Assembly: GCF_007858475.1 (NCBI RefSeq)
Contig: NZ_VIGX01000009.1
Coordinates: 1-64,000 of the forward strand
DNA length: 64,000 nucleotides
Source: Tsukamurella conjunctivitidis
GTDB taxonomy: Bacteria > Actinomycetota > Actinomycetes > Mycobacteriales > Mycobacteriaceae
Direction: 5' to 3'
Below the pieces are notes generated by a model. That model ran no database searches, was not told where the DNA came from, and saw nothing but the letters and a program-made list of their open reading frames with translations. Within the stretch, counting starts at the first letter, position 1; every line of letters begins with the position of its first letter. Position numbers and translations under genes: made by a program. Of this stretch, positions 1 through 14,855 are shown one piece after another.

Positions 1-130
1 CCCCGTGTGTGGTTGTGCACCCGCTGCTGGGCACCGTCCCACCGCCAAACTACGACCTCGTGACGGACATGTCCACCACAGCATCCCTGCTGGTCAACCC
101 CTTACCAAGCCTGTCAGCTGGAGATAAACC

Positions 131-188
131 TCGAACTCCTGACATCCGCCTTGCAAAGGCGGCGCTCTACCAACTGAGCTAAGGCCCC
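131..188 (-). tRNA. tRNA-Ala(TGC), 5' portion only; 3' end not recognisable
   Basis: Read on the minus strand, the acceptor 5' strand GGGGCCT, the D arm, the anticodon arm with loop TTTGCAA (anticodon TGC) and the start of the T arm (AGGAG then TTCGA) are all normal for alanine tRNA. After TTCGA the sequence departs: there is no closing CTCCT followed by AGGCCCC in the remaining 130 bases to the window edge. Neighbouring tRNA-Ile sits 14 bases upstream, the usual gyrA-ileT-alaT arrangement. It may be a tRNA interrupted in the T loop by an intron or an inserted element, or a broken copy. Confidence 0.7.
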
Positions 189-202
189 GGGACGGGGTGT
201 GG

Positions 203-276
203 TGGGCCTAGGAGGACTTGAACCTCCGACCTCTTCGTTATCAGCGAAGCGCTCTAACCGCCTGAGCTATAGGCCC
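203..276 (-). tRNA. tRNA-Ile(GAT)
   Basis: A complete cloverleaf is visible: acceptor strands GGGCCTA and TAGGCCC, an A discriminator, D arm AGCTCAGGCGGTTAGAGC, anticodon loop CTGATAA with anticodon GAT, and T arm GGAGG-TTCAAGT-CCTCC. CCA is encoded at 202-200. It lies downstream of gyrA and its DUF3566 partner, as in mycobacteria. Confidence 0.95.
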
Positions 277-329
277 GTGAACCGAGGTGGAACATTACCA
301 GCGCACCTCGGGTTCTACAAAATCGCTGG

Positions 330-1049
330 TCAATCCCTATCGGAGAGGGTCACCTCGATGCCGCCCACGAGGTCGGCGCAGAGGTTGTAGATGAACGCGC
401 CGACGGTCGCGAGCGCGGTCAGCAGGATCACGTTCGCGAGACCGGCGAGGCCCGCGTAGGTGAAGACGTTGCCGGCCGTCAGGAGGCTGACGCCCGCCTG
501 CTCGTTGGTGAGCGTCTGGAAGCTGTCGTTGATCTTGCTCCACACGCCCATGCCGCTGAGCACGATGTACAGCACGCCGACGGCGATCATCCACACGAAG
601 AAGAGCACCACCGAGACCACACCGGTGAGCTTGAACGTGGTCCACGGGTCGATGCTGCGCAGCTGCATGCCCGCCCGCACCGGGCCGCTCGCGGCCTGCG
701 TCTTCACGCCCGCCGCGCGGGCGGGAGCGCCGCCCACGGTGTGCAGGTTCGACGGTGCCGCCTCGCCCGCAGCAGCGGCCGCGGGAGCCGCCGCGACCGG
801 CTCGGTCGCCGCGGTGTCCGCCGCCGGCTGCGCAGGCGCAGCCGGAGCGGCGGGGGCCGCGGGCGCGACCTGATGGATCTTGTCCAGGTCGGGCAGGTTC
901 TTCGGCAGCTCGTCGCGTTCCACACCCTCGGTGGGCGCGTCGATCACGCGGCCGACATCGGTATCGCGTCGCGGGATCCGGACGGGCTGCCGGCCCGCCT
1001 CCGGTCCGGACTCCGGCGGCTGGCCGGATCCGGTTCCAGGGGTACTCAC
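330..1049 (-). CDS. DUF3566 transmembrane protein downstream of gyrA
   Basis: 239 residues. The first 130 are rich in Ala, Pro and charged residues and look disordered. The C-terminal 110 hold two hydrophobic segments ([20 protein letters not shown] and one around [17 protein letters not shown]) and end in VTLSDRD, the layout of the DUF3566 family found next to gyrA in mycobacteria (Rv0007 position). The GTG start has GGAG six bases upstream. The gene follows gyrA by 27 bases and is probably cotranscribed with it. Its function is not known; the membrane location is inferred from hydrophobicity. Confidence 0.85.
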
Positions 1050-1076
1050 ATGCGCTCCTTCGTGCTCCGCGGCGGC

Positions 1077-3578
<2,502 letters not shown>

Positions 3579-3615
3579 TTCGAGTCCTTCAGTTCATCGG
3601 TTCGACGGTGCGCGG

Positions 3616-3635
3616 CCCCGCCCCGAGGGGCGGGG
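3616..3635. terminator. GC-rich hairpin between gyrB and gyrA
   Basis: CCCCGCCCC at 3616-3624 faces GGGGCGGGG at 3627-3635, a perfect inverted repeat with a two-base centre, so in practice a stem of about eight pairs. There is no U tract. It sits 8 bases downstream of the gyrB stop and 38 bases upstream of the gyrA start, so it could attenuate readthrough or set the gyrB:gyrA ratio. Seen in sequence; the function is inferred. Confidence 0.4.
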
Positions 3636-3643
3636 TGTCCCGG

Positions 3644-5839
<2,196 letters not shown>

Positions 5840-5984
5840 TCACGACGATGAATGCGTTTGCCACGCCCTCATCGCGTCCCAGACGCGATCAACCTCGTTT
5901 CGGTCGGCTCAGTCCGAATCGCAAGCCGACGCGCACACGGCGATGCTGGGGCATGAACCGGCAATCGATCGTAGAGTCGGAGGC

Positions 5985-6446
5985 ATGGATCACGCCGAGA
6001 TCGACGACTACCTCACCCGGTACGCGGAGAGCCTCGCGCGGTTCGACGCGACCGCCGGCGCCGACCTCTGGGCCGAGCCGGGCATGATCGTCGACGACCG
6101 CTTCTCCGGCGTGCTCGACGACCGCGCGACGATGGCCCGCGGCCTGCGGCAGTCCTATCCGCTGTACCGCGCACTCGGGCTGTGCTCGGTCGGCCACGAG
6201 CTCCTCGACGCCGTGCCGCTCACCGGCGCGATCACGCTGCTCCACGTCCGCTGGCTGTTCCGCGACGACGAGGGCCTGCTGCTCACCGACAGCACCGGGT
6301 ACTACGTCGTGCGCCGCGACCACGACGGACTGCACGCCTGCGTCTGCATCCAGGTCGACGACGCCGCGAAGCTGCAGTCCCTGGCCACCGAGCGCGGCAT
6401 CGACCTCGCCGACTTCCTCCCGGCCGCGCCGCCGGCTCAGCCGTAG
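5985..6446 (+). CDS. NTF2/SnoaL-like small protein
   Basis: 153 residues. The pattern of an N-terminal helix ([21 protein letters not shown]), a middle segment with [16 protein letters not shown], and alternating strands ([31 protein letters not shown]) suggests the NTF2-like cone fold shared by SnoaL-type polyketide cyclases and ketosteroid isomerases. No catalytic residue can be assigned. The ATG has TCGGAGG just upstream. It runs opposite to its neighbours, and its last 10 bases overlap the end of convergent dciA. The fold is inferred from pattern only; substrate unknown. Confidence 0.65.
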
Positions 6447-6979
6447 GTATCGCGCGGGCCCCGGCCGGGCACGTGCAGCGGGCCCTTGCGCCAGCTGGGC
6501 GCGCTGGGCCCGGTGATGTGCAGCGAGGTGACCACGCCCTGCCCGACCGCGGCGTTGATCTTCGCCAACAACTGGGACTGCATCAGGCGCAGCTGCGTGG
6601 CCCACGCGGTCGACTCCGCGCTGACGTAGAGGACCTTGTCGCGCAGGTTGACGGCGCGGGCGTGCGCAGCGACGTCCGCGCCGACGACGGTGTCCCAGCA
6701 GCCGAGGACCGTGCCCTCGTTGACCTTCGTGTCCCAGCCGCGGGCTTTGGCGATGCCGCCGATGAGGGAGCCGAAGGGCTGGGGATCGCGGTTGTCGGGC
6801 GACGGCCCGCTCCACCGCTTCGAGCCGCGGCGCAGCCGGCGCACCCCGCCCGTCATGGGCTCGGAGCGGCCCTGCCCGACCGATTTGCCCGCCGCCTTCG
6901 CCGCCGCGCGGGCCTCCTCGAGCGCGCGCCGCGCGATGTCGGAGCCGTGCAGCTGCCCCTCGTCGTTCTGCCCGGTCAT
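6437..6979 (-). CDS. dciA: DUF721 / DciA-like helicase-loading factor
   Basis: 180 residues. The core matches DUF721: [21 protein letters not shown], then [21 protein letters not shown], then [22 protein letters not shown]. DciA proteins interact with the replicative helicase DnaB in bacteria that lack DnaC; the mycobacterial homologue lies between recF and gyrB, and this gene is in the equivalent interval though separated from recF by about 4.5 kb of other genes. The N-terminal 70 residues are basic and probably flexible. The ATG start at 6979 is preceded by a GGGAGGTG ribosome site. Confidence 0.85.
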
Positions 6980-7015
6980 GACACCTCCCTGCGCCCGGAA
7001 ACCTCGCCTGCGAGG

Positions 7016-7861
7016 CTACTCGCCGACACCGACATCGGCCGTGCCGGCGGGCGCGGGGGCGAAGACGTCCGGCGCGGCAAGCTCGGCGAGCAGGCGCTGC
7101 GCGCGCGCCTCGTCCCACTCCCCCGACTCCGCCGGTGCCGCGGCCCCGTCGGCGAGGAGGGCGTATCCCGGCCCGGGACGCGCCGCCCCCGCACCCGTGT
7201 GGCCGCCCACGACGTACCCCCGCATCAGGGCGAGGCCCACGCCCGCGAGCTCCCGATAGCCGATGGTGCTGGTGAACCCGAAGAGCTCGAAGAGGCGGCG
7301 GTAGTTCGCCTCCAGCCGGGTCAGTACGGCGTCCTCCGCGCGGCCGACGGCGGCCACGACGCGCTCGCGCGGGGCCCCTGCGGGCAGCGAGGGCACCGCC
7401 ATCGCGAGGGTCAGGTACAGCCTCCACCGCCGATCCTCCTCGCGGTCGGCGAGCAGGTCGTCGTCGGCCGAGGCGGCCACCGCCCGCAGCAGGGCGGAAC
7501 GCCGGCCGGCCACCGTGCGCAGGCTCGACGGATCGTCGCCGACGGCGCGGCGCAGCACATCCGTCGCCCGAGCCCCGCGCGTGGAGGCGATCGGCAGCGC
7601 CCGATCGGCGAGCGCGGCGAGGACGTCGGCGAGGAAGTCGTCGCGCTGCGGCCAACAGCGGTACGCCGCGGTCCGGGAGACGTCCGCGTCGCGGACGGCG
7701 TCCTCGAGCCGGACGTGTTCCAGTCCGGTTCCCAGCCCCTCCGCGAGCACACGGTCCGCCGCGGCGTCCAGGACCCGTCGCCGGGTCTCGTCGAGTGCCA
7801 GGCGCCGACGCCTCGGGGTTGTCCCCGAATTTGGTACTCGGGGTTCCAAAGTCTCGCTCAC
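7016..7861 (-). CDS. TetR-family transcriptional regulator
   Basis: 281 residues from GTG at 7861. The N-terminal helix-turn-helix follows the TetR pattern (ETRRRVLDAAADRVLAEGLG, then VRLEDAVRDADVSRTAAYRCWPQRDDFLADVL); the C-terminal ligand domain is unrecognised. It is divergent from the small membrane protein at 7919. Three related palindromes (7831-7850, 7867-7887, 7888-7907) lie in and beside the 57-base gap, the first falling inside the beginning of this gene, so autoregulation and control of the divergent gene are likely. The open frame continues upstream to 8428, but that extension has the composition of the opposite-strand gene and is rejected. Confidence 0.85.
   Translation of the reverse strand: MSETLEPRVPNSGTTPRRRRLALDETRRRVLDAAADRVLAEGLGTGLEHVRLEDAVRDADVSRTAAYRCWPQRDDFLADVLAALADRALPIASTRGARATDVLRRAVGDDPSSLRTVAGRRSALLRAVAASADDDLLADREEDRRWRLYLTLAMAVPSLPAGAPRERVVAAVGRAEDAVLTRLEANYRRLFELFGFTSTIGYRELAGVGLALMRGYVVGGHTGAGAARPGPGYALLADGAAAPAESGEWDEARAQRLLAELAAPDVFAPAPAGTADVGVGE
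7831..7850. promoter_or_regulatory. operator-like palindrome 1 (TetR)
   Basis: TTGGTACTCGGGGTTCCAAA, an imperfect palindrome with half-sites TTGGTAC and GTTCCAA. It lies within the first codons of the TetR gene and is almost identical to the copy at 7888-7907 (one mismatch). Confidence 0.6.
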
Positions 7862-7866
7862 GGGCC

Positions 7867-7887
7867 TATGGTACTCCGTGTACCAAG
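7867..7887. promoter_or_regulatory. operator-like palindrome 2 (TetR)
   Basis: Centre GGTACTCCGTGTACC, flanked by TAT and AAG, is a palindromic relative of the sites on either side. It occupies the middle of the divergent intergenic region and abuts the third site, giving near-continuous operator sequence across the promoter. Confidence 0.6.
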
Positions 7888-7907
7888 TTGGTACTCGGAG
7901 TTCCAAA
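7888..7907. promoter_or_regulatory. operator-like palindrome 3 (TetR)
   Basis: TTGGTACTCGGAGTTCCAAA. It ends at the AAAGGAGA ribosome binding site of the gene starting at 7919, so a bound repressor would cover the translation start region of that transcript. Confidence 0.6.
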
Positions 7908-7918
7908 GGAGACACATC

Positions 7919-8395
7919 ATGTCGACACGGACGATCACCCCTCCTACGACTGCACCGTCGGACGGAGCGCGGCGCACCCTCCTCGCCTACGGGCTCGGCG
8001 CCCTCGCCACCGCCGCCGGCCTCGGCTACGCGCTCGCCGATCAGTTCGCGCTGGGCGGGCTCGACCGGCACCTGCACGCGCTGTACGACCCGGTCGGCAA
8101 GTACGGCGAACCCGGCCCGCTGTACGCCTACCTCTACGCCGTCGGCCTGCTCGGGCTGCTCTGCTGGTGGGGCGCAGCGCGACTGGTCCGCAGCGGCGCG
8201 ACGTCGGCCCGGCGCTGGGGATGGATCGCGTTCGGTGCGGCGGCGCTGCCGGTGCTCGCACCGCTGGTGATGCAGGAGTACGGGCGGCCCGTCGTTCCGC
8301 TCGCGCTCGCGGCGGGCTACCTCGTCGCGTGGGCCTGCGGCCTGGCGGGAATCGTCCTCCTGCGCAGGACGGGAGCCGGGTCGAGCGCCGGATAG
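7919..8395 (+). CDS. small integral membrane protein, probable TetR target
   Basis: 158 residues with four predicted membrane segments (around LLAYGLGALATAAGLGYALA, YAYLYAVGLLGLLCWWGAA, WGWIAFGAAALPVLAPLV and VPLALAAGYLVAWACGLAGI). No family is recognised. The ATG has a strong AAAGGAGA ribosome site 6 bases upstream. Its divergent position behind three operator-like palindromes makes it the likely target of the TetR regulator. A transport or stress role is possible but not shown by the sequence. Confidence 0.75.
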   Translation: MSTRTITPPTTAPSDGARRTLLAYGLGALATAAGLGYALADQFALGGLDRHLHALYDPVGKYGEPGPLYAYLYAVGLLGLLCWWGAARLVRSGATSARRWGWIAFGAAALPVLAPLVMQEYGRPVVPLALAAGYLVAWACGLAGIVLLRRTGAGSSAG

Positions 8396-8404
8396 ACTCG
8401 CCCC

Positions 8405-8504
8405 GGCCGGCAAGGCCGACCGAGCCACGCTCTCGGCCGAGGACCACGACCACGTCCTCGAGGGCGTCTTCGAGATTCCCGGCCTGCCGGAACTCGCGCG
8501 CTGA
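8405..8504 (+). pseudogene. possible C-terminal gene remnant
   Basis: In one frame this stretch reads as a protein-like tail (GKADRATLSAEDHDHV, then LEGVFEIPGLPELAR, then TGA at 8502-8504) of about 32 residues without its own start or ribosome site. It lies between the membrane protein stop and the convergent exporter gene. It may be what is left of a gene lost at this insertion site. The family was not identified. Confidence 0.3.
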
Positions 8505-8513
8505 CAACGCCGG

Positions 8514-10142
8514 TCAGCGCAGCGAGGGCACCCTGATCGGCTCGGTCACGGCCTCCGACTCCCGGGCCAGGAGCTCGCTCACGCTGACGTGCCCGCTCGA
8601 TGACGTTCGGCGGTGGCGCGCCGGCGGCCGGGTCCGCAGGAAGGTGGCGACGACGAGGCACGCGACCGCGCCCACCCCCGCGGCGACGAGGTTCGCCGAC
8701 TGCATCGCGGAGACGAAGCCCTGTTGCACGGTGTGCCCGAGGGCGGCCTGCAGCTCGGGCGGCGCCGCCGCGACCGCGCGGATGCCGCCGATGACCGACG
8801 ACTCGGCCTCGGCCCGGGCACCCGGCGCCAGGGGCAGCCGCGCGACGTCCTCGGCGACCTTCGCGGAGTACAGGTGCGCCACGACCGAACCGAGAATGGC
8901 GACACCCAGCGCTCCGCCCACCTCGCGAGTGGTGTCGTTGACCGCGGAGCCCGCGCCGGCCTCACCCGACGGCACGGACGTCATCACCGACGTCGTGGCG
9001 GGACCCTGCAGCAGGCCGAGGCCGACCGCGATCACCGACATCGCCGGCAGGACCTGGGTCAGGTAGTCGGCGGATTCGGTCAGGCGCGCCGTCAGCACGA
9101 AGCCGGCCGCCATGATCGCGAGCCCGAGGGCGATCGTGAACCGCATTCGCCGCTCCGTGTTCGCGAGCGCCGCCAGCGGCGTGACCGCCACGGCCGCGAG
9201 CGCGAACGGGATCACTCGCACCGCCGTCTCCAGCGGGCCGTAACCGAGCACCGCCTGGAAGTACATGATCGTGATGAAGACGAAGCCGAGCAGGCAGAAG
9301 AAGCCGGCACAGATCGCGAAGGAACCCATCGCGAAGCCGCGGGTGCGGAACAGTGTCACGTCGAGCACGGGATTGCGGTGCCGCCGTTCGTACATCACGA
9401 AGCCGACGACGAGGACCGCGGCGCCGGCCAGGGCACCCACCACCGGGCCACTGCCCCACCCGAAGTTCGGTGCCTCGATCAGTGCCCACACCAGCAGCGT
9501 GATCCCGGAGATCGACAGGAGCACGCCGAGCAGGTCGAAGGAGGGTCGCTCGGAGCCGTAGGACTCGGGGACCAGCGCGAGGCAGCCGACGATCGCGACG
9601 ACCGAGATGGGCACGTTGATCCAGAACACCGACGACCACGCGAAGTGCTCCACGAGGTAGCCGCCGACGACGGGGCCGATCGCGATCGACGCACCGGCGG
9701 CCGCGGACCACACGGCGATGGCCTTGGTCCGATCCTCCTTCTCCGGGAACAGGTCCGAGATGATCGCGAGCGTGGCGGGGAAGATGAGCGCCGCCGCGGC
9801 GCCGAGCGCGGCCCGCGCCGTGATGAGCTGGGCCAGCGAGGTCGACCGGGTCGCGAGGACGGAGATCGCGACGAAACACAGCAGGCCGGCGACGAGCACC
9901 TTCCTCCTGCCGAGGCGGTCGCCGAGATAGCCCGTCGCGAGCAACAGCCCGGCGAAGACCAGTGTGTACGAATCGACGATCCACTGCAGCGCGCTCATGC
10001 CGCCGCCGAACTCCTCGCTCAACGTGGGGAGCGCGATGGTGACGATGCTGTTGTCCATGCCGGTCATCAGCACGGCGATGCACAGCGTCCCGAGCGAGAT
10101 CCAGCGCGCCGGGCCGGACCGCCCGCCGGCGGTGGCGATCAT
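8514..10142 (-). CDS. DHA2-family (EmrB/QacA-type) MFS drug or lipid exporter
   Basis: 542 residues from ATG at 10142. The protein has about 14 hydrophobic segments, an N-terminal LMTGMDNSIVTIALPTL motif typical of the DHA2 subfamily, motif A (GYLGDRLGRRKVLV), and motif C-like AAGASIAIGPVVGGYL. DHA2 proteins are proton-driven exporters of drugs or lipids. The start lies one base after the stop of the upstream glycosyltransferase gene, so the two are almost certainly cotranscribed and perhaps translationally coupled. This suggests export of a glycosylated product, which is inference. The longer open frame to 10265 overlaps the glycosyltransferase and is rejected. Confidence 0.9.
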   Translation of the reverse strand: MIATAGGRSGPARWISLGTLCIAVLMTGMDNSIVTIALPTLSEEFGGGMSALQWIVDSYTLVFAGLLLATGYLGDRLGRRKVLVAGLLCFVAISVLATRSTSLAQLITARAALGAAAALIFPATLAIISDLFPEKEDRTKAIAVWSAAAGASIAIGPVVGGYLVEHFAWSSVFWINVPISVVAIVGCLALVPESYGSERPSFDLLGVLLSISGITLLVWALIEAPNFGWGSGPVVGALAGAAVLVVGFVMYERRHRNPVLDVTLFRTRGFAMGSFAICAGFFCLLGFVFITIMYFQAVLGYGPLETAVRVIPFALAAVAVTPLAALANTERRMRFTIALGLAIMAAGFVLTARLTESADYLTQVLPAMSVIAVGLGLLQGPATTSVMTSVPSGEAGAGSAVNDTTREVGGALGVAILGSVVAHLYSAKVAEDVARLPLAPGARAEAESSVIGGIRAVAAAPPELQAALGHTVQQGFVSAMQSANLVAAGVGAVACLVVATFLRTRPPARHRRTSSSGHVSVSELLARESEAVTEPIRVPSLR

Positions 10143-13691: not shown

Positions 13692-14855
13692 TCAGCCCGG
13701 CAGCCGCACCGGCATGAGCAGGTACGTGTACGGGCTCTGCGGCGCGGGGAACGCCCCGGAGTCGTCGGGCTGGTAGCCATTCTCCTCCGCGGGGCGCAGC
13801 ACCGCAGGGCGACTCGGGGTGGTGAAGCCGAAGGTCACCGACTCGGTGTGGATCGCGGCCAGGCCGTCCTGCAGGTAGCCCGGGTTGAAGGCGATGGTGA
13901 GGGCCTCGCCCTGGAAGTCGGCGGGCAGCTCCTCCTCGGCCCGGCCGGCGTCGTCGCCGCCGGCGGAGAGCCGCAGCGAGCCGTCGGCGAACTCCATCCG
14001 GACCTGGGCGCCGCGGTCGGCGACGAGGGCCACGCGCTTGATCGCCTCGAGCAGCGGCGCGATCTCCATCGTGGCGATCGCGGTGTGCGAGGCGGGCAGC
14101 AGCTGCCGGAACTTCGGGAAGTCCGCGTCGAGCAGGCGAGTGGTGGTGCGACGGTCCGCGCCGACCACGCCGAGCAGGCCGTCGGCGCCCACGGCGGACC
14201 CGGCACCGAGCGCGATGCCCACCTCGGGGTCCACGGCGAAGGTCTTCGCCGCCTCGGAGAGGGTCTTCGCCGGCACCAGGACCGCGGCCTTGACGTCGGC
14301 GGACGCGGGCTGCCAGTCGAACTCGCGGACGGCCAACCGGAACCGGTCGGTCGCGGCGAGCACGACCTTCTCGCCCTCGATCTCCACGCGGATGCCGGTG
14401 AGCATCGGCAGCGTGTCGTCCTTGCCCGCGGCGATTGCGACCTGGGCGATGGCCTCGGCGAAGGTGCCGCGCTCGATGGCGCCGGTCTGCTGCGGCAGCT
14501 CGGGCAGCTGCGGGTAGTCCTCGACGGGCATCGTCGGCAGCGAGAACTTCGCACTACCGCAGGTGATCGCGACGCGAGTGGTGTCGAGCTGCACGTCGAC
14601 GGGCTTGTTCGGGAGCGCCTTCGTGATGTCGGCGAGCAGCCGGCCCGAGACCAGCGCCTGCCCCTCGTCGGCGACCTCGGCTCCGACGCGCACCCGCGCC
14701 GAGACCTCGTAGTCGAATCCCGAGACGGTCAGGCCGTCATCGCCCGCGGTGAGGAGGACGCCGCCGAGTACCGGCACCGGGGGGCGCGACGGCAGGCTGC
14801 GCGCCACCCACGCGACGGATTCGGCGAACTCCTCGTGCGGGACGCGAAACTTCAT
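13692..14855 (-). CDS. dnaN: DNA polymerase III sliding clamp beta subunit
   Basis: 387 residues, the usual clamp length, with three DNA-clamp repeats. The start [21 protein letters not shown] and the end [14 protein letters not shown] are typical of actinobacterial beta clamps. The clamp tethers polymerase to DNA and docks RecF, DnaE and ligase partners. It is transcribed away from the origin, whose repeats start about 165 bases upstream of its start codon. In many relatives dnaA is directly upstream; here the origin and a separate plus-strand gene stand between them. Confidence 0.98.

Follow-up and report, generated by a model that had tools for sequence, protein, structure and literature searches.

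A Tn554-family transposon that very probably splits the tRNA-Ala(TGC) gene of Tsukamurella hosts and supplies a spare

The tRNA-Ala(TGC) gene at the start of the 64,000-nucleotide stretch of Tsukamurella conjunctivitidis DNA analyzed here (contig NZ_VIGX01000009.1 of assembly GCF_007858475.1; hereafter "the window") breaks off inside its T arm. The best explanation of this break, to which we assign a probability of about 0.92, is a Tn554-family transposon that splits the host's single tRNA-Ala(TGC) gene, supplies a spare, and inserts by a core exchange of the Tn554/SE type. According to this model, the 17,898-bp transposon has entered the T loop of the host gene, splitting it after TTCG, and the element-borne tRNA-Ala(TGC), which begins at element base 124 and lies close behind tRNA-Ile, would replace the function of the destroyed gene. 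The donor core beside the transposase end would travel with the element to the opposite end of the new insertion and the target's own core would remain at the transposase end, with four variable bases exchanged, or at most six if the preceding CG is included. We infer a circular copy-out intermediate, and also that the spare tRNA is transcribed and required. Conjugative plasmids would carry the element between hosts, where it could jump into the empty tRNA-Ala of the new host, and from there copies could move on to further sites. Directly visible in the sequence are the split with its 3' half, the junctions on either side, the spare gene, the transposase trio and the pattern of the cores.

The broken tRNA-Ala(TGC) gene and its spare

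The features at the start of the window are listed below (C254, C198 and similar labels denote contigs of the same assembly).

200..276, minus strand: intact tRNA-Ile(GAT) gene, the upstream neighbour of the broken tRNA-Ala (ARAGORN; Rfam 74.8 bits)
132..188, minus strand: 5' part of the host tRNA-Ala(TGC), 57 nt, ending ...GGAGTTCG in the T loop
128..131, minus strand: left core AGGT, foreign to the tRNA (native core AATC)
1..127, minus strand: left end of the transposon, TTATCTCCAGCTGACAGG..., equal to the exact 127-base overlap that ends the contig
65..74, no strand assigned: GGACATGTCC, centre of a palindrome-like stretch (alignment of six left ends)
1..4, minus strand: first four bases (GGGG) of the transposon's spare tRNA-Ala(TGC), the rest of which lies at C254:17702-17775

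The minus strand from 188 to 132 is a normal alanine tRNA as far as TTCG of the T loop, which bears out the preliminary description of a tRNA-Ala(TGC) gene that loses its 3' end in the T arm. The Rfam tRNA model scores this fragment at 32.9 bits over model positions 8-63, well short of the adjoining tRNA-Ile, and tRNA-Ile is the sole tRNA that ARAGORN calls in the window. The same description extended the match to base 131; this base (A) does agree with the tRNA, yet it is part of the replaced core AGGT (131-128), and the match holds to 132. The core AGGT is probably a copy of the element's site of departure. Base 1 of the window is also the first base of contig C343, one of 343 contigs of a draft assembly, and therefore the 3' half of the tRNA cannot be contained in the window. 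C198 begins with the same 127 bases as the window, and C254 has them, reversed, at one of its ends; they look like an assembler overlap, with the sequence ending at a branch point.

The search for the 3' half suggested at that stage did succeed: TCCTAGGCTCCACA is present on contig C274 of the same genome (G000), beyond the right end of the 17.9-kb transposon. The real 3' acceptor strand is GGCTCC, and a search with GGCCCC, which assumed perfect pairing, gave nothing; GGCTCC yields the G3-U70 pair, the identity element of alanine tRNAs. A degenerate copy, the reading that an intact second gene combined with the lack of a nearby 3' half would have favoured, is contradicted by the existence of the 3' half and by the arrival of the second gene with the insert. 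The small stems noted downstream of the break do include GGACATGTCC at 65-74, which is conserved as GGNCATGTCC in all six aligned left ends (near-identical copies were left out of the alignment), and their use by an intron is unsupported; GGNCATGTCC may be an operator, a part of a promoter or a recombinase site. The Rfam Plastid-ycf2 5' UTR model matches the plus strand of the window at 202-276 with 45 bits, below its cut-off of 65.7, and probably recognizes the antisense sequence of tRNA-Ile.

We compared 16 Tsukamurella genomes, the own genome G000 included; by matching to named records, G001 is T. pseudospumae JCM 13375, G002 Tsukamurella sp. M9C, G011 T. spumae DSM 44113 and G015 T. asaccharolytica HKU71. 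Nine of the 16 possess an intact tRNA-Ala(TGC), TTCGAATCTCCTAGGCTCCAC, and seven possess a split tRNA-Ala with the identical left-end sequence behind the break. The missing 3' half was recovered in all seven split genomes, always after the right-end sequence of the element. The record of T. tyrosinosolvens NCTC13231 (NZ_LR134456) runs without a gap from gyrA through a DUF3566 gene and tRNA-Ile to the 5' portion of tRNA-Ala, and onwards through ATCA, the element and AATC to the 3' part; its element comprises 17,898 bp and is 100% identical to C254, and its left core is that of G004, for which reason it is not counted separately. In G002 both junctions lie on one contig, flanking a related element of 25.3 kb.

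G010, one of the nine genomes with an intact gene, has in addition an element right end with the tRNA-Ala 3' half on another contig (G010:C233:7482), a double state that may be due to a mixed culture, contamination or a second attachment fragment. Downstream of the intact tRNA-Ala(TGC) of G010 and G014 the opposite strand resembles, by eye, the end of an integrase gene, and other elements might use tRNA-Ala(TGC) in the ordinary, rebuilding manner.

The own genome yields 48 tRNA matches, with the broken fragment included, and the sole complete tRNA-Ala(TGC) among them is on C254; its other alanine tRNA genes have the anticodons CGC and GGC. This element-borne gene (element positions 124-197, at the left end) is intact, scores 74.2 bits and is of the same isotype as the broken gene. 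A single-copy host tRNA is broken and is rebuilt at neither junction, the sole copy having been checked in the own genome. The spare is present in all seven split genomes (that of G015 was found on the contig with its second element), and it occupies the same element end in relatives from G227, a member of another genus of the family, and from a Mycolicibacterium farcinogenes plasmid. A promoter scan found no sigma-70-like promoter upstream of it. The next most similar tRNA genes among 298 genomes of the order are 92% identical (with a query one base off the gene) and come from six genomes of another genus of the family; our guess is that the spare was captured from that genus. We suggest that it takes over from the destroyed gene, and the cell appears to be dependent on the element. 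The expectation that a break would have to be spliced or backed up elsewhere has turned out right for the backup, a complete tRNA-Ala(TGC) on the transposon, and finds no support for the splicing.

Alternatively, the spare could be a dispensable passenger, with other tRNAs reading GCA adequately. The rarity of this codon (used 77 times among the 1,708 alanine codons counted across 23 window ORFs) is compatible with such a view, which we nevertheless consider improbable: the spare is the sole complete TGC gene found, it accompanies the split in seven of seven genomes, and it holds its place at the same end of the G227 and M. farcinogenes elements. Moreover, under the usual wobble rules the anticodons GGC and CGC do not read GCA.

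The transposon and its junctions

C254 (17,898 bp) contains both ends of the element, TTATCTCC...GATATCG. Contig overlaps reveal that C343 and C198 lead into it and that C274 and C279 leave it, and two left plus two right neighbours indicate two copies of the element in the own genome. We also considered C198 as a part of the element with the junction of a circular form, and rejected this because the right-end data place C198 beside the second copy. According to the annotation of the named copy, the tRNA is followed by genes for a BtrH-like protein, a transglutaminase-like protein, an FAD-dependent oxidoreductase, a cytochrome P450 and a 2Fe-2S protein, then for an AraC regulator, a PaaI thioesterase, a TetR regulator, an RND transporter (MMPL by Pfam) and a hypothetical protein; the right part of the element encodes an XRE regulator (M78 domain), a hypothetical protein, two tyrosine recombinases and a DUF6262 protein. 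The P450 matches the solved chains of a cytochrome P450 alkane hydroxylase (8b2p) and of CYP153A7 (3rwl); a CYP153-type alkane hydroxylase, together with ferredoxin and reductase, forms part of the cargo.

Among the elements of G000, G001, G002, G004, G011, G013 and NCTC13231, this CYP153-type cargo is present in G000, G004, G011, G013 and NCTC13231. The P450 has no match in the stretches of the G001 and G002 elements that were compared; these elements share with C254 just the left end and the part from XRE to tnpC and otherwise carry different cargo. Compared with the elements of G004, G011, G013 and G015, identity is at least 99.9% in every stretch longer than 1 kb, and one 360-bp stretch of the G015 element is 99.4% identical. 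The tRNA-Ala copy of G013 (G013:C2:113250-145793) has an extra insert of ~14.6 kb at element position 13,877/13,878, in the hypothetical gene before tnpA. A plasmid of Gordonia sp. KTR9 (NC_018583.1, 91557-98497) is 94.8% identical to the P450/transglutaminase/BtrH cargo; this match corresponds to element positions 1418-9093, in two pieces and covering 39% of the query, and the tnp part has no match there.

As in the Tn554 family, one recombinase is of ordinary size, with 374 aa (351 aa as annotated in the named copy), and the other exceeds 600 aa, with 666 aa; both contain PF00589, and the third protein has 153 aa with PF19776. Their genes tnpA, tnpB and tnpC lie at the right end of the element in the same order as on pWBG4. 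TnpA is 30% identical to the corresponding pWBG4 tnp product over 336 columns (E 1e-50) and TnpB 24% over 522 columns (E 1e-33), and TnpC matches PF19776 as does its pWBG4 counterpart; the pWBG4 record bears no transposon name, and we read its tnp genes as Tn554 from the neighbouring ant(9) and erm(A). On sequence similarity, the last three genes of the element are Tn554-type TnpA/TnpB/TnpC. TnpB has a match at E 1e-30 or better in 13 of 401 genomes of the family, eight of them Tsukamurella. A scan of the whole collection for the left end returned eight stretches, five from Tsukamurella and three from unrelated bacteria; the latter were rejected as chance matches, as the remainder of the left end is absent there.

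At tRNA-Ala all left junctions read TTCG-NNNN-TTATCTC, in which NNNN is AGGT in the own genome, AATC in G001 and G002, CGGC in G015, TGTC in G013, TCGG in G011 and ATCA in G004, and all seven right junctions read GATATCG-AATC-TCCTAGG. The left core is thus foreign in five of the seven genomes, and in G001 and G002, where it is AATC, the letters of the T loop are unchanged. The four core bases are, in standard tRNA numbering, T-loop positions 58-61. The left and right cores differ and target duplication is absent. In the left flank, the base in front of CG changes from target to target (GCG in G013), so that at most six bases, CGNNNN, are exchanged. By the left-end pattern, the element lies in the tRNA-Ala behind tRNA-Ile in all seven carriers; other sites are used too, and every left flank seen has CG ahead of the core.

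Four of the split genomes contain a second copy; the left core of these copies is AATC in all four, and the right cores are GAAC (own genome), CTGC (G013), ACGA (G015) and ACTC (G004). In G004 the ACTC site is another tRNA-Ala-like gene; the native T loop of this gene, TTCGACTC, was read from the right junction, the left junction being AATC. The split Ala-like gene on contig G004:C3 (locus 295-1509), interrupted by the same element, follows a tRNA cluster for Gly, Leu, Ile and Asn, which may be a mobile region. Two relatives outside Tsukamurella also have the left core AATC at non-tRNA sites, and a decayed left end in G011 (contig C10) has GAGA, which makes six of seven left ends at other sites with AATC. 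As read from standing insertions, the cores follow the core-transfer rule of Tn554 and the SE elements, by which the donor core at the transposase end comes to the opposite end of the new copy. The presence of AATC as left core in two of seven tRNA-Ala insertions is as expected if the donor had sat in a tRNA-Ala. No right core of a second site equals any left core at tRNA-Ala, and no donor-recipient pair was caught among them. The second site of the own genome was considered as the source of the tRNA copy and rejected, since its right core is GAAC and not the expected AGGT; no empty allele of that site was found in the 16 Tsukamurella genomes.

An ordinary integrative element (a prophage, ICE or IME) with a lambda-type integrase, which rebuilds the 3' end of the tRNA from an identical core, would account for the tyrosine recombinases and for the choice of a tRNA gene, a classic attachment site; the integrase-like coding sequence seen by eye after the intact tRNA-Ala of G010 and G014 also points in this direction. 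We regard it as very improbable for the element described here, in which the 3' end is not rebuilt, the left junctions read TTCG-NNNN-TTATCTC, and the cores of element and target mismatch in five of seven cases. Its recombinases are the TnpA/TnpB/TnpC trio, with a PF19776 TnpC as on pWBG4; a lone integrase was not seen, nor do the two junctions share an identical core of at least 15 bp.

The preliminary description had proposed an intron or an inserted element. The latter was correct and is the 17,898-bp transposon on C254, whereas an intron, with the tRNA transcribed through the insert and then spliced, has next to no chance of being the answer, even though tRNA genes can hold introns and short stems were seen downstream. 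The insert measures 17.9 kb, encodes tyrosine recombinases at one of its ends, contains a second, complete tRNA-Ala and is also found at non-tRNA sites; the bases at its junctions vary among genomes, and splicing at the ends would not yield one normal tRNA. Rfam gave six matches with E up to 1 for window positions 1-10,000, none of them to an intron family. An assembly artefact or a decayed pseudogene, as the position of the feature at a contig end in a draft of 343 contigs might suggest, is just as remote, given the same structure in seven genomes and its continuity in NZ_LR134456 and on one G002 contig; the base-calling error that had been feared is unlikely as well, because the same break is found in 7 of 16 genomes and stands gapless in the T. 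tyrosinosolvens record.

Second copies, relatives and the spread of the element

Second copies of the transposon occur in various surroundings. In the own genome the second copy adjoins genes on C198 for a conjugative coupling protein and a relaxase, and its flanks resemble Pseudonocardia and Rhodococcus plasmid genes at 60-80% identity over parts. In G013 a stretch of ~100 kb between two elements holds related conjugation genes, which is the outcome to be expected if a circular plasmid that bore the element had recombined with the chromosomal copy; an empty form of such a plasmid site was not seen. In G004 and G015 the second copy is part of a large contig. Two copies in one genome, with the presumed donor still in place, would agree with a copy-out mechanism.

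G227 and the M. farcinogenes plasmid carry relatives with the left-end tRNA-Ala(TGC) and the left core AATC; as the two may belong to one genus, related tRNA-Ala elements are present in at least one other genus. Two motifs are candidates for the right end of the G227 element. Compared with Tsukamurella, the M. farcinogenes element (plasmid locus 12.3-21.0 kb) has its tnp module in the opposite orientation with respect to the element ends, and its tRNA-Ala(TGC) is a short, divergent form. The decayed related left end in G011 (G011:C10:150-340) is 86% identical over 191 bp and has distant tnp relatives 4-8 kb away; its tRNA-Ala is damaged and receives no ARAGORN call.

Left cores that are mostly foreign at tRNA-Ala and mostly AATC elsewhere fit a cycle from plasmid to tRNA-Ala and on to further sites, and such a plasmid/tRNA-Ala cycle is what we would infer from them. 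The replacement of T-loop positions 58-61 in five of seven genomes makes rebuilding of the 3' end unreliable and suggests the whole spare gene as the solution: with the donor core in the 5' part, an element end that restored the 3' end of the tRNA would give a normal T loop only by luck.

Comparison with known systems

Relatives of Tn554 were described in Actinobacteria in 2012 (PMC3414803). Like Tn554 and its relatives from Staphylococcus and Enterococcus, our element has two tyrosine recombinases, the second of them long, followed by a TnpC with PF19776 in the same order; also as in Tn554, target duplication is absent and the donor core is copied to the opposite end of a new insertion. Unlike in Tn554, the target here is the T loop of a tRNA, a full spare of the target tRNA is on board, and four core bases, at most six, are variable. 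The Tn554 tnp operon reads inwards from its end, whereas here it points towards the end of the element, and the XRE-M78 gene and two hypothetical genes adjoin tnp.

The same core-transfer rule is stated for the SE elements, together with Tn554 (PMC10214605), and for Tn552-II (PMC12486829). The SE elements resemble ours in a 6-bp fingerprint that moves from the donor flank to the other end of the new copy and in having one to two copies per replicon, and differ in that the paper describes four core genes including tfp and a survey of Gammaproteobacteria, and its main text does not contain the word tRNA (PMC10214605). Tn552-II of MRSA shares with our element the tnpABC genes, an "att brought in" to the far end and a carried target-like gene (tgl), for which the authors suggest a possible rescue of the disrupted target; there the target is a chromosomal protein gene (YolD-like) and no tRNA, and rescue is a suggestion (PMC12486829).

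A functional parallel comes from tRNA-dependent lysogeny, reported in 2024, in which actinobacteriophages break a single-copy tRNA and a phage tRNA replaces it (PMC10865867). In both systems a single-copy tRNA is broken and the incoming DNA brings another, but the phages are temperate, with a lambda-like integrase and a common core of ~10 bp (PMC10865867), whereas here a three-protein transposon is at work and the core need not match. The need for the tRNA was shown by experiment for the phages (PMC10865867) and is in our case predicted from sequence. Among the listed titles and abstract openings of the open-licence literature, we found no Tn554-type element in a tRNA gene and no transposon with a replacement tRNA.

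Taken further, these data suggest a tRNA-dependent transposition, in which a Tn554-family lineage of at least two actinobacterial genera takes over an essential single-copy tRNA, the copied core usually rewrites T-loop positions 58-61 and so blocks classical rebuilding at the junction, the cell relies on the tRNA of the transposon, and the cores record a cycle between conjugative plasmids and host tRNA genes. To this joint reading we give slightly better than even odds, and it is within it that the left cores would mark the previous address of each element.

Integration into tRNA genes is usually explained by the rebuilding of the 3' end from an identical core. The element described here points to a second way, known so far from phages, which in this case would be taken by a transposon with a core rule that hinders rebuilding. 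A split tRNA that annotation would label a pseudogene is explained as well. A near-identical element is present in the genomes of several species, its core bases may offer a natural record of the routes of transfer, and the exchange of a host tRNA for its spare provides a plausible mechanism by which cells could become dependent on a mobile element.
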